From positions 1,364,001 to 1,428,000 of the forward strand of contig LSAX01000003.1 in NCBI GenBank assembly GCA_001557505.1: a stretch of 64,000 bases of DNA, given 5' to 3'. Source of the stretch: Reticulascus tulasneorum. Its lineage: Eukaryota > Ascomycota > Sordariomycetes > Glomerellales > Reticulascaceae. A model generated the notes under the pieces. It was not told the origin of the DNA, made no database searches, and worked only from the letters and a program-made list of their open reading frames with translations. This document shows positions 8,970 to 14,889 of the stretch, piece by piece. Each line of letters begins with the position of its first letter. The stretch's first letter is position 1. The translations under genes and the position numbers were made by a program.

Positions 8970-9533
8970 CTTCGCGCGTTTTCTTACTCGCGGCGTTCTT
9001 GTGTGAATAAAAGGATGTAAGCCCCCTCGAATATCGAAACTGAGTCAAACACTGAGGATGGGCTATGGAGAATTATTTTTTTGCCCCGCGTGTCGTGGCG
9101 CTGTCTCTACCCCGAGAAATACGAATGCCGATGAAAGCCACATGTGGCTCGTGCTTCAGCAGACGGATCACATGCTAAGGTAGCTGCGTATCGGCTTTAC
9201 CTGGGTGGGGCTAGTGGCATTTGGCTTTCTCCAAACGGCCGAGGGAGAAGCTCCTTCGGGAACTGAAGCATACTCGCTCGGGTGTGCCTGTGTAACCCTG
9301 TGACCGTCATGGTTTATTCCCACATTCTTCTACCACCGTGGACGAGCTCGCAACGCCGCATTCGAATTGCCAACTCCCATAGCAGAGCGCCTCAAACAGA
9401 CTCGAATGTATTGACATTGACGAGACCTTCAGTCCAATGCCCATGGTCCTCCAGCTTCGGTGACGTCGTCCTCCGCGAACCACTGTCGCGACCGACGAAG
9501 CTCTCTCCTGGCTCTTAGAGCCAGTCCTCAACC
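8970..9533. other. Divergent promoter region
   Basis: 564 bp between the start codons of DPH3 and the peroxisomal transporter. No TATA box or coding exon is evident. It contains GTGGGG and CCCCGCG words, but I cannot assign binding sites. Confidence 0.45.
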
Positions 9534-11825
9534 ATGGCCGCACAATCGAAGCTCACCCTACCTCTCCCCCGGGACCGTACTATCCGTACCATCATCACCG
9601 ACCTCACGCGCCTCTACCTCTCCAACCGCAGCCGCATCACCCGCGCCGTCTGGCTGACCCTCTTCGTGGCCCTCGTCAACCGCATCCGCCATGCCATCTC
9701 TGAGCAGAAAGCCGCTTCAGTGCGCGATGCGGCCCAGCGCGCCGCTCGCAGCGGGACTACATCGGGCGGCGACGTGACGGACGCGACCAAGAAGAAGCGG
9801 GTCGAGTTGAATCGAGAGTTCTTCCGTTCACTGCTGCGGCTCCTGAAGATCGTGGTGCCCGGGTGGCGGAGCAAGGAGACGAGGCTGCTGATATCCCACT
9901 CGTTCTTCCTCATCATACGAACCTTGATTAGTCTGAAGGTTGCGGCAATGGATGGTGCGATTGTGAAGAGCTTGGTCAAGGGAAATGGGAGGGAGTTCTT
10001 GATGCAAATTGTCTGGTGGATGTTGATTGCGGTGCCCGCGACCTTTACAAACTCTATGGTTTGTCTCCATGCGGCCTTGGATTAGCTGTTCTTCAACTAA
10101 CATCGTGTAGTTATCGTACCACCAAGCCGAGCTGTCGTTGAAATACCGAACCCGACTGACACAGCATATCCACGACAAGTACCTTTCGAAGCTTACCTTC
10201 TACGGAATCTCTGCTCTCGACGACCGGATAAACAACCCGGATCAGTTGATTGCGGTGGATGTCTCCAAGTTCTCAAATAGTTTGGCGGAGTTGTACAGTA
10301 ATCTGGCGAAGCCCATATTGGACATGGTGGGTCCGCCGTCTTCCCTTTCGCGTGTTTTATTGCTAACTCACGGCAGACTGTCTATACATACTCGCTATCA
10401 AAAAGTGTCGGTGGCGAGGGGGTGGTTTTCATGTCGCTTCTAGTCCAGCTCTCGGCAAACGGCATGAGAGCACTGACGCCGCCTTTCGGCAAATACGTCG
10501 CCGACGAAGCACGCTTAGAAGGCGAGTTCAGATTCCAGCATTCGAGATTAATCGACCACAGCGAAGAAGTAGCGCTATACGCTGGCCATGAAGTAGAGAA
10601 AGATACACTAGACAAAGGCTACTTCACGTTGATCAAGCACGTCAACTACATTCTAAGAAGGCGCTTCTACCACGGATTTATGGAGGATTTTGTCATCAAG
10701 TACTTTTGGGGAGCGCTGGGCCTGCTGCTCTGCAGCGTGCCAGTGTTTGTGAAGATCCCGGGCGAGATTGCATTGAATATGGGTGATCGGACAGAGAGCT
10801 TCGTCACCAATCGGCGTATGCTGTTGTCGGCTTCCGATGCATTTGGCCGGGTGATGTTCTCATACAGAGAGATTATGGAGTTGGCTGGCTATACCTCTCG
10901 AGTTGCCACACTACTGGAGGTTATGGATGATATCCAAGCTGGTCATTTTGAAAAGAAGCTTGTCTCGAGCTCAGGGACCGAGAACAATGAAGCTGTACTC
11001 AAAGGAAGAGGCACTGTTGTGGAGAGCAAGGACATTCAATTTATCGATGTGTAAGTTTGATCTCGACCTTGGATGATCCAGCACTAACCAAGGCATAGCC
11101 CAATCATATCTCCCAACGGCGACGTCCTTGTCAAGGCCCTCTCTTTTTCCCTCAAACAAGGCGATCATCTCCTCGTCGTCGGCCCTAATGGTTGCGGCAA
11201 GTCGTCACTCTTCCGCATCCTCGGCGGACTCTGGCCAGTTTACGGCGGTACCGTGCACAAGCCACCATTCACAGATATTTTCTACATCCCGCAACGCCCC
11301 TACCTCTCCCGTGGTTCTCTCCGCCAACAAATCACATATCCTGACTCCCTGCGCCAGATGCGCGCCAAGGGCATCACGGACGCAGAACTTCTCTCCATCC
11401 TCTCCACCCTTGGCCTCGAGCATCTCCCGGAAATGTACGACGCCGGGTGGGACGCAGAAGCTGAGTGGCGCGACGTACTTTCCGGCGGGTTGCAGCAGCG
11501 CGTTGCGATGGCGCGGCTGTTCTACCACAAGCCGCGCTATGCGATCCTAGACGAGTGCACGAGCAGCGTGACGCTGGAGACGGAAAAGGCAATGTATGAG
11601 AACGCAAAGAGCTTGGGTATCACGCTCATGACAGTTAGTCACAGGCGGAGCTTATGGAAGTATCATTCGAGGATCCTGCAGTTCGACGGACAGGGCAATT
11701 ACGTGTTCACCAAGCTAGACGCGGACAGGCGGCTAAAGCTTGAAGATGAGAAGGAGGACCTCGAAGTTTTGTTACGGCAGGTGCCGGAGCTTGAGAGGAG
11801 GGTGGCGGAGCTGACTGCTGAGTGA
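9534..11825 (+). CDS. Peroxisomal ABCD-type half-transporter (fatty acyl import)
   Basis: A subfamily D (ALD/PXA type) ABC half-transporter, the class that dimerises in the peroxisomal membrane to import long-chain acyl-CoA for beta-oxidation. Exons are 9534-10058, 10111-10326, 10377-11050 and 11099-11825, giving 713 residues. The order is a basic N-terminal region, membrane domain, then nucleotide-binding domain. The ALD loop NPDQ lies near the end of exon 2. The nucleotide-binding domain shows Walker [10 protein letters not shown] at about 500-508, the signature at 599-602 (LSGG followed by LQQR), Walker B YAILDE at about 619-624, and a switch histidine in [12 protein letters not shown], a strong match to ABCD1-type proteins. 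The usual signature is LSGGEKQR; here Glu is Leu. I cannot tell PXA1 from PXA2. It ends with a short coiled-coil-like tail. Confidence 0.93.
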
Positions 11826-12144: not shown

Positions 12145-12299
12145 TCATTCCCAATCTCCGTCGTCGCTCCATTCGTTGTCGTCCTCTAGATTATTGGGAT
12201 GGAACTTGCAGTCCTCCTTGTGGATGCTGTTATCGTGCTGCACGATCTGCTTGTGATCCGCGCCGCACTCGTAGCAAAACTCGTGTTTGCACTTGACGC
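12145..12299 (-). other. Alternative terminal exon B of the RBR ligase
   Basis: Acceptor CCTACAG precedes GC in the same phase as exon A. The exon encodes VKCKHEFCYEC, then a segment with NSIHKEDC and an acidic C-terminus (NEWSDDGDWE), ending in TGA. The cysteine spacing matches exon A residue for residue over the first 11 positions, which indicates exon duplication. The longer His/Cys-containing tail looks like the usual end of fungal RBR proteins, so B may be the ancestral form (inference). Confidence 0.75.
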
Positions 12300-14889
12300 C
12301 TGTAGGTCAAACGCATTAATAAGTATCACGACACATAAGTTCAGAAAAGCTACTGTTGCAGCAGCAGCATTAATAGTAGTGAACATGTGGGTCGGTGACT
12401 GGTGGGGTGCGGATATGGTGTTTGATGCGGTGGCTGGACTGCAGTTGGGACCGGGCTCAACGCCTGGCAGGAAGGTTGCCGCCGGTGCAGGAGATACTAT
12501 GTCCGTTTTTCCAGATATTGTAGCAGCCCCAGCAGAACTCGTAGCGACACTTGATGCCTGTGAGATGTTGGCTTGTGTTCATCAAAAGCGTAGGGGGATG
12601 GTGAGGATAGGAAGATGAAGGAGGGGGGTTGAGGCAGGGGCAAAGGTGACGATGCTGACGCACCATGAAGTCTCCAGCTTTTATAACAATGTGTCTCGAC
12701 GGATGGGGAGGAGCAGGGTAGAGTAACTTACATGTCATATGCGAGCTGTTGTGGCAATTGTTAGTGATAGTTGGGACATGGGCTTTGGATCTGATAACTC
12801 ACCACCCTTCATTCTTCTCAATGGCCCATCCGCAACCGGGACAGGGTTTTGTCGTTTCCGCAACCTTCGCAGTACTCTGCTCCTCCTCCCTCTTCCGTCG
12901 CGACGCGATCTTCCGCGCCAGATCCGCCGCCTTTTTCGCCCTCTCACGCTCTTCTCGCTCTCTAGCCTCACGCCTCGCGATCTCTGCTTGCTGCTCCGCT
13001 TCCAGGCCCTGCGCCATGGCCCGATCCGCATCCTCTTGCACCCGACGCAAGGTCTCCCACTCGTCGTTCTCGATCTCGATCCGTGATCGGAAATTCTCGG
13101 GGTCTGCGATGAGCTGGTCGTACTCCTGACATGCGAGGTTCTCGTGCCAGGCAACGTTGTGTACGAAACAGGAACGGTGGCCGCAGTGTAGGCAGTTGAC
13201 GATGGGTTGATCACTGCCTGTGTCGTGGATTTGGCCGGACCCGCAGCCCGACGTACACCAAATGAAGTTGGACGCCTCGGACATGGCTGCTCGCAATGCG
13301 AGCGCTTCGTATCTGAAGCCCATTAGCTCTGTGCACCCGGACATTGAAGAAAGGGCTACTCACCGAGCAAAAGTTTGTTTGTCGGCGTACTTTTGGATAT
13401 CGACGTAGTCTAGCAGCTCCCTGCACTCGGGGCAGCGAATCTCCGTCCACAGCTTGCTGCTCAGATCCGATTGGATTGACATCTGTAGGCAGTCCAGGCA
13501 GGTGGCTGGAGAATGTGCGCATGTCGGCGTGACACTAAACAGCGGGAACATGGCAACCTCCTTCGTCTCAGCACAGATAGGGCACTCCCGTGAACCGCTG
13601 AGGTCCTCTGCCGTCAGCCGCTGCCTCGTTAATACAACGTCGGCCGTATCCGCCGACTTCTGATATCTCTGCCCAAAACTGAACCGCTTAGTGAAATCCT
13701 AAAATGCCGAAAAGAGTGACAAGAAAACAAAGCCCACCACGCCACCACTCTGCTTTAGAGAGTGGCGGTCTCCCGTGGGCTCGTCGAAGCGTCTGGGGGC
13801 TTGGTCGAGGACCTACCTGAAATCATCAGCGGCTAGATCTCCACCATTGCTCCGGCTGCCAAGCGTTTCCTGGCTGCGGAGGAAGGCCAAGGCCATGGCC
13901 TGGTCTTTTTGCTCGAAGAGGGCTACGTACGGGTTATTTGAGGTCGACGTGGATGAGGTTGGCCGCGACGTTTCTGGTCGGACCGGGATTGGTGATGTGG
14001 TGGCAGCGGAGGTTGTCGCTGTGGCTGGTGCAACGCCTTTTCCATTCGCTAGCAACGGAGACGTATCGAATTCAGAGTCGTCGAGTATGGATGCTGATAT
14101 GGGCAAGTAACCACGTCTTGGCGCCGCGCTGGTAGACTCTGTCGGAGGTGGTGTTACATTTGGCGCCGTAGATAGGGTTTCCGGATGTGTATCATATGAT
14201 AGGGTTGGCAGAGCGAAGTCGAAATCAGCCATGATATCGTCGCTGATAGCTCGGTAGTGAAAGGCAGGCCTGGCCAAGTCTTGGGCAGGGGCAGGCTCGG
14301 CAGGGCCAGGTACCTCATCCTCATTGTCGCTTCTTAGTGTGAGTGCCTGGACCTCAGCTTCCTCGTCCGTCTCTTCGTCGTCGTTGAGAACGATCGAGTC
14401 CTCGTAGCTCCTCGGCGGCTCCTCGTCGTCGCCGAAGCCACCCATGATAGCCGGGTTCACTCTGCCGTAGTAACTCGCCGTCCCCGCATTTGATGTGGAC
14501 GGCGACGTAAACATTGTGTTGGTTGGCACCGTGTCTACGTACGGCACATATCTAGGTCCAGAAGAATCGGGAGGTGTCTCAGTGTGAGTTACTGCAGCTT
14601 CCGTCTCAATTTTCGGAGGTAGAGTCTCGCCCACGGGGCTGGGCTGAGGGGGTTCTACTTGAAGCGGAACCTGGATGGTGGTGGTGATGGCTGGGGCTGG
14701 TGGTGCCTCCTCGTCGTAGACGTGCAGCACCCGGATGGAAGAGCGAATGCCCTCGTCGTTGCTCGACTTGGAGGTAGTATTTCCAAAGCTCGATGTCGAG
14801 AATGACCAGCGAGATGGAGATGAAAGAGGGTCGCGTTCACGCGGTTGGTGCAAGGCTCCGCTGACTTTCTTTTTGAGTGAGCGAAACAT
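12145..14889 (-). CDS. RBR (RING-IBR-RING2) E3 ubiquitin ligase with alternative terminal exons
   Basis: An RBR ligase takes ubiquitin from an E2 onto a RING2 cysteine and then passes it to the substrate. Exons are 14889-13817, 13678-13364, 13312-12803 and 12745-12732 (14 nt), followed by one of two terminal exons: A at 12557-12457 (670 residues) or B at 12299-12145 (688 residues). Residues 1-360 are acidic, Pro/Ser/Thr-rich and probably disordered. RING1 starts at Cys390 (CPIC). The IBR domain runs about 482-523 (CTSGCGSG, then CLHCGH). It is followed by a long charged Arg/Glu/Lys-rich helix at about 525-605. RING2 starts CPGCGW at 620 and continues CSHMTC, where Cys638 aligns with the catalytic cysteine of HHARI-type ligases. 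The Cys638 codon is split T|GC across the last junction, and both terminal exons begin with GC. Which terminal exon dominates cannot be seen from DNA. Confidence 0.9.
12457..12557 (-). other. Alternative terminal exon A of the RBR ligase
   Basis: Acceptor CTCACAG precedes GC, which completes the catalytic Cys638 codon. The exon then encodes IKCRYEFCWGC and a 21-residue tail with a His-x3-Cys pair (GHSISC), ending in TGA. It restores the full set of RING2 zinc ligands. A GT within the exon (CATA|GTATCT) has the phase needed to splice onto exon B, so inclusion of both is also formally possible. Confidence 0.75.
12732..12745 (-). other. 14-nt microexon in the RBR RING2 region
   Basis: The 14 bases lie between acceptor ACAACAG and donor GTAAGT. 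They supply C, then Ser-His-Met-Thr, then T. This joins TG of the upstream exon and GC of either terminal exon into CSHMTC, the invariant RING2 core. Leaving it out breaks the frame. Confidence 0.85.

Follow-up and report, generated by a model that had tools for sequence, protein, structure and literature searches.

The window analysed here, a 64,000-nt stretch of contig LSAX01000003.1 from the ascomycete Reticulascus tulasneorum, carries on its minus strand a gene for an RBR (RING-between-RING) ligase, which was read as four shared exons followed by one of two terminal exons, A or B. All introns are bounded by GT and AG, and both products are open over their full lengths of 670 aa (A) and 688 aa (B). 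The parts of the gene are as follows.

13817..14889, minus strand: exon 1, N-terminal region; putative ATG at 14889, GT-AG junction, open frame
13364..13678, minus strand: exon 2, RING1 region; placed by its junctions, with RING1 recognised by position and cysteine pattern only
12803..13312, minus strand: exon 3; IBR (BRcat), linker, first Rcat zinc pair (C620/C623) and the TG of the catalytic cysteine codon
12802-12746, minus strand: intron that splits the catalytic C633 codon (TG/C)
12732..12745, minus strand: exon 4, a microexon of 14 nt; third base of C633, S-H-M-T and first base of C638
12558..12731, minus strand: intron to exon A, 174 nt
12731-12300, minus strand: intron to exon B, 432 nt, with exon A inside it
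12457..12557, minus strand: alternative terminal exon A; completes C638, then C641, E644, C646, C649, H657 and C661
12145..12299, minus strand: alternative terminal exon B; completes C638, then C641, E644, C646, C649, H664 and C668

Gene organisation and the two terminal exons

The acceptor of exon 2 was chosen by eye as one that keeps the frame and fits the relatives (FGQRYQ). The terminal exons are separated by 157 nt and lie behind a single donor (12731), from which both can be reached in one phase. The first-pass annotation had placed A at 12557-12457 and B at 12299-12145, in equal phase and each starting with GC, and the AG acceptors (ctcacag/GC and ctacag/GC) and open frames of both products bear this out. 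The spacing C-x2-C-x4-C-x2-C that it had seen in both exons is also real. The exon A product stops 9 residues past its last zinc ligand, and exon B specifies a longer loop before H664 and, after C668, an FHP motif and an acidic tail. Loose matches to a branch site occur 24 nt 5' of A (TTGAT) and 16 and 7 nt 5' of B (TTAAT and TTGAC, respectively), a suggestive placement that may bear on competition between A and B.

Pieces of an ABC transporter (9519-11825, plus strand; ABC_membrane_2 at 9519-10085 and ABC_tran at 11088-11825) are convergent with the RBR gene, at a distance of about 320 bases from exon B, and resemble a peroxisomal fatty-acyl ABC transporter. A CSL zinc-finger protein (PF05207; 8706-9044, minus strand), which we take to be probably a DPH3 homologue, and a 1184-aa open frame with DUF3433 (PF11915; 17930-21484, plus strand) are also present. 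Scanning the window against Rfam, with gathering cut-offs, and for tRNAs returned nothing.

Exons A and B were tested against chance in several ways. On the two strands of the window, the pattern C-x3-F-C-x2-C follows in phase after two of 1,000 acceptor-like AGG[CT] sites, and these two are A and B. Each exon is found at a single place in the 42.8-Mb genome, except for one further match to A at E 0.9. For other RBR loci of the genome, the exon-wise matches at E up to 10 numbered 17 for PF01485 and 12 for PF22191. The nucleotide similarity between the exons is weak (24 of the 35 first bases are equal, and 61 of 2,000 shuffles reached the local alignment score), so that descent of both from one duplicated exon is a possibility at most. 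Codon usage was learned from frames of at least 350 codons in the window, among which there may be antisense shadows. Synonymous codon choice is coding-like in both exons, with a score as high in fractions of 0.0055 (A) and 0.0005 (B) of 2,000 base-composition draws. The plain codon score mixes in amino-acid make-up, and the synonymous-only score was added afterwards; by the plain score A is not separated from shuffled sequence (as high in 38.9% of 1,000 shuffles), and a value as low occurs in 3.6% of 279 coding windows.

Domain identity and the active site

RING1, IBR and Rcat are present in the order that defines RBR ligases, and IBR and IBR_1 score above their cut-offs with either end, while IBR_2 is above its cut-off with A and just below it with B. 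In the B product, IBR (PF01485) covers residues 463-524, and no Pfam match at E up to 0.01 was found upstream of residue 463; outside the RBR part this product has no Pfam domain. The RING1 region gave no separate RING family match in the Pfam profile search. Over residues 390-688 the best-matching relatives are 68-75% identical. IBR_1 (PF22191) was matched by a 56-aa Rcat-A piece at E 1.2e-14 and by longer RBR pieces at E 4.3e-13 (A) and 7.7e-11 (B), and the Rcat sequence matches those of ARIH2, Cullin-9 and parkin. Like parkin, HHARI/ARIH1, ARIH2/TRIAD1 and HOIP, the protein has an IBR and an Rcat after a RING1-like region, a catalytic cysteine with a histidine two residues on and a glutamate further on, and the corresponding zinc-ligand spacing. 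It is unlike these ligases in that the second half of Rcat comes in two exon versions within one gene.

Eight Rcat zinc ligands are predicted, namely C620, C623, C638, C641, C646 and C649, together with H657/C661 in A or H664/C668 in B; both ends in the window carry this final His-x3-Cys pair. In ARIH2, C310 is the putative active-site cysteine and C300 and C318 bind zinc, according to the portion of PMC3817463 that was available. Counting in the alignment, C633 of EGC-SHMTC falls on ARIH2 C310, which makes it the catalytic cysteine, and C638 falls on ARIH2 C315, a position that comes after the active-site C310 and before the zinc-binding C318. The proposal of the first-pass annotation that the GC at the start of each terminal exon completes the catalytic cysteine codon is consequently wrong: the alignment puts that cysteine upstream, in the shared part, and the residue that A and B complete is C638, a zinc ligand. 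The catalytic triad of parkin is Cys431/His433/Glu444 (PMC3940038, consulted in part). By its spacing the catalytic histidine is H635, encoded by the microexon, and the residue that fits Glu444 is E644, which A and B each supply separately; C633, H635 and E644 thus give a catalytic cysteine with a nearby histidine and glutamate in the sequence alignment. Since C633 and H635 are encoded upstream of A and B, the thioester-forming cysteine and its histidine are common to both forms.

Predicted structures were examined for two relatives. The AlphaFold model of P0077, which is A-ended, is poor overall (mean pLDDT 54.3), with Rcat predicted as four strands at about 71-83 and at 62 in the block with the last ligands. 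That of P0002, which is B-ended, has a mean of 68.9; four strands occupy the corresponding place, and a helix is added at 508-518 (about 86). This extra helix is predicted in the relative, not in the window's own protein. In Foldseek, the Rcat of P0077 superposed on parkin over 42 columns (1.6 A, 52% identity) and on ARIH2 over 38 columns (0.9 A), and the P0077 model gave no match at E 0.001 or better. P0002 matched 38 RBR structures at E <=0.001 with low whole-chain TM-scores, and with whole-chain rmsd mostly of tens of angstroms, so that these matches support the domain set and not its arrangement.

End types among relatives

Relatives were collected in three protein searches, which together gave 140 different proteins among the matches listed (120 of 124 from one of them). 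One of the searches scored only the candidates with the most shared words, and Leotiomycetes and Eurotiomycetes were thinly sampled. A scan of viral contigs found no relative there. Among the 140 matches listed, 19 C-terminal ends are A-like, 56 are B-like, 28 stop at GW and 37 are of other types, the last class including an MMETSP match (P0121) that is probably not an orthologue. These end types are mostly taken from gene models, in which predictors may have picked the wrong exon.

A-like ends occur in Colletotrichum, Neonectria, Fusarium, Tolypocladium, Chaetomium and Thozetella, as well as in two doubtful others. Colletotrichum belongs to the Glomerellales, Chaetomium to the Sordariales and Thozetella to the Chaetosphaeriales; the remaining genera (Neonectria, Fusarium and Tolypocladium) we assign to the Hypocreales. 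In the Sordariales, the A end is represented by P0079 and, doubtfully, by P0083, and P0127 and P0130 are likewise doubtful as A ends. P0130, from Aspergillus unguis, has a short A-like end with H-x3-C followed by two residues; if this end is real, exon A is older than the Sordariomycetes. The B-like form is also found in Hyaloscypha (P0096) and Aspergillus (P0102).

Residues are conserved in both exons among the relatives. Ten A ends picked by hand, that of the window among them (F. oxysporum, P0083 and P0130 were left out), all keep C, FCW, C, H and C at a mean pairwise identity of 0.54, and eight hand-picked B ends, the window included, keep C, FC, C, A, H, I, DN, H, C and HP at 0.61. The differences in loop and tail between A and B are consistent across genera. 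The A end of F. oxysporum has H-x-C in place of H-x3-C, and because its last zinc pair is altered in this way, exon A may be decaying in that species. One B-like relative (P0081, a protein from an lgn contig) has GR-DHMTC at the expected site of the catalytic cysteine, which may mean a ligase that has lost catalysis or a wrongly read junction.

Several misread Fusarium models appear to hide an A exon. In P0118 (F. oxysporum), a single locus, the intron is read through, an A start follows in frame (RKCNYQF), and B-compatible letters come after it out of frame, a B match made without a shuffle control. Three odd tails (P0040, P0052 and P0093) are all compatible with an out-of-frame A exon by the core and loose patterns, and two of the three by a strict Fusarium pattern; each of the three patterns was met in 0 of 1,200 shuffles. 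Three further A-ended proteins, P0027 (jgi) together with P0029 and P0042 (both lgn), are free of intron read-through and stem from sources whose longest contigs measure 4.2-5.4 kb. They are probably transcript assemblies, a point on which the source labels are silent, and clustering at 90% identity hides whether B-ended copies accompany them. A genome model from F. culmorum (P0098), which matches P0029 at 89% identity in the first 393 residues, stops at GW.

The first-pass annotation had looked to conservation of both exons in related genomes as a check. Both end types do recur among the proteins of relatives; the two together in one relative are seen only through P0118. As far as the predicted proteins go, the comparison establishes both end types across one orthologous gene in the Sordariomycetes. 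It is unlikely that a working ligase comes from one of the exons only, the other being a product of splicing noise or in decay. Such an account is in keeping with the plain codon score of A, the changed zinc pair in F. oxysporum, the greater frequency of B-like ends (56 against 19 among the matches listed) and the reach of the B-like form to Hyaloscypha and Aspergillus, but it fits poorly with the coding-like synonymous codons of A, the residues kept in the ten hand-picked A ends, the A exon apparently hidden in three misread Fusarium models and the three probable transcript proteins that end in A.

The 28 models among the 140 listed that stop exactly at GW, before the microexon, bear on a different possibility. 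In the window, reading into intron 3 would likewise stop before the catalytic cysteine codon is completed, and intron retention makes up most of the alternative splicing described in fungi (PMC3597508, in the part available). The region could thus serve mainly as an on/off device, in which retention of intron 3 or 4 truncates the ligase before Rcat is complete, while the difference between A and B itself has little effect on catalysis. This is compatible with a gene that has two ends, and as the principal role of the region it seems improbable: the GW ends are most simply explained by predictors that missed the 14-nt exon, and the loop and tail differences between A and B hold across genera.

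Whether one gene or two underlies the two ends was assessed from a tree of the common part, with 43 rows comprising the window, all A proteins except P0077 and P0130 (17 of 19) and a hand-picked 25 of the 56 B proteins. On this tree 12 changes of the A/B label are required, and the starred branches force 12, compared with a mean of 13.4-13.5 for shuffled labels, of which 131-137 of 500 were as low. Labels so close to the shuffled scatter indicate that the ends do not mark two paralogue clades, and such scatter would be expected where a single gene offers annotators a choice of two exons. The tree carries the caveat that the long branches of P0127 and P0063 meet. The rows of the F. oxysporum group (P0085, P0086 and P0064) form a long branch beside the other Fusarium sequences (0.92).

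Near-identical pairs point the same way as the labels. In F. oxysporum, the A-ended P0085 (strain Fo47) and the B-ended P0064 (from a different strain) share 97.2% identity over 606 aa of the common part; coming from two strains, this pair alone does not place both exons in a single genome. The A-ended P0086 and P0094, a model with intron read-through, share the locus name FOIG_03643 and are 100% identical over 531 aa. Two paralogous genes, one A-ended and one B-ended, mistaken for one are a very improbable source of the two ends: apart from the long F. oxysporum branch, this reading is largely refuted by the scattered labels on the tree, by the pairs that differ in end while nearly identical in their common parts, and by the placement of A and B 157 nt apart behind one donor, each in a single copy in the genome.

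Splicing of A into B as an internal exon, for which three of the five GT sites in A keep the frame (12548, 12497 and 12461), was also considered and set aside. Among the matches listed, none of the 140 proteins carries two FCxxC half-domains within its last 140 residues.

Proposed exon swap and its relation to known systems

The reading that we prefer, at a probability of about 0.8, is that this fungal RBR E3 ligase gene has two alternative terminal exons that swap the C-terminal half of Rcat. This keeps the core of the first-pass proposal of one RBR gene with two interchangeable Rcat ends, which is well supported by the comparison (interleaved branches on the tree, the 97% identical F. oxysporum pair and one single-locus gene model), and drops the idea that these ends complete the catalytic cysteine codon. 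The donor at 12731 would be joined to one of two competing 3' splice sites, the proximal site of A across an intron of 174 nt or the distal site of B across 432 nt. Everything through Cys633 and His635 would be shared, and the swapped part would comprise the equivalent of parkin Glu444, the last two bases of the C638 codon, five further zinc ligands, the loop and the C-terminus. Form A would have a compact Rcat that ends soon past its last ligand, and form B a longer loop (with the extra helix predicted in a relative), the FHP motif and the acidic tail. Both mRNAs are probably made in this species by alternative splicing, and both proteins would be expected to be active ligases.

The diversity of RING2 among RBR ligases is concentrated in its C-terminal half, as in HOIP, RNF216 and HOIL-1, and insertions there reportedly set the acceptor or chain choice in HOIP and RNF216, as has been suggested for HOIL-1 (PMC9834252, portions of text). 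In those ligases the variants belong to different genes, whereas here they would belong to one. Because the thioester residues are kept while the half that reportedly sets acceptor or chain choice in other RBR ligases is swapped, the A and B forms may differ in acceptor, chain type or regulation. From HOIP and RNF216, a change in acceptor or chain choice is a reasonable guess, and ubiquitin transfer or autoinhibition may be altered, as the first-pass annotation had proposed. More tentatively, and with rather less than even confidence, splicing might switch the Rcat half that defines acceptor and chain, on the same thioester cysteine, to give two ubiquitin outputs, an arrangement that would be of sufficient age to be common to Hypocreales, Glomerellales and Sordariales.

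Parts of this arrangement have precedents. The fungal SKI7/HBS1 gene uses competing 3' splice sites to make two proteins and is conserved in this across distant fungi (PMC3597508); the present gene would resemble it as a single fungal gene with competing 3' splice sites, and differ in that the SKI7/HBS1 segment between the sites is included or skipped before a shared end, whereas here one terminal exon would take the place of the other within a catalytic domain. Human parkin (PRKN) has many splice isoforms that differ in their RING domains, with H1, H2 and H20 reportedly the only ones that have Ubl, RING1, IBR and RING2 (PMC9117662, in the sections available). Parkin isoforms thus have or lack domains, whereas each end here would complete the same domain in another version. 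In animals, homologous mutually exclusive exons swap two similar versions of one protein stretch (PMC7954323, PMC9741552); unlike them, A and B are terminal exons with their own stops, occur in a fungus and have weak nucleotide similarity to each other. Genome-wide splicing studies exist for Verticillium dahliae and F. graminearum (PMC5294800, PMC3577648), the former with alternative last exons among its event types, and such a gene is not named in the portions of their text that were available, gene lists aside. The first-pass annotation knew of no described RBR gene with alternative Rcat ends, and none appeared among the open-licence papers listed.

In RBR ligases it is the second half of RING2/Rcat that varies and that has been linked to acceptor and chain choice, and a gene that swaps exactly this half and leaves the rest unchanged would offer a natural controlled experiment on its role. 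It would also be a case of conserved fungal splicing that alters a catalytic domain and not the presence or location of an enzyme. The 14-nt exon at the active site may explain why many database models halt just before the catalytic cysteine is completed.
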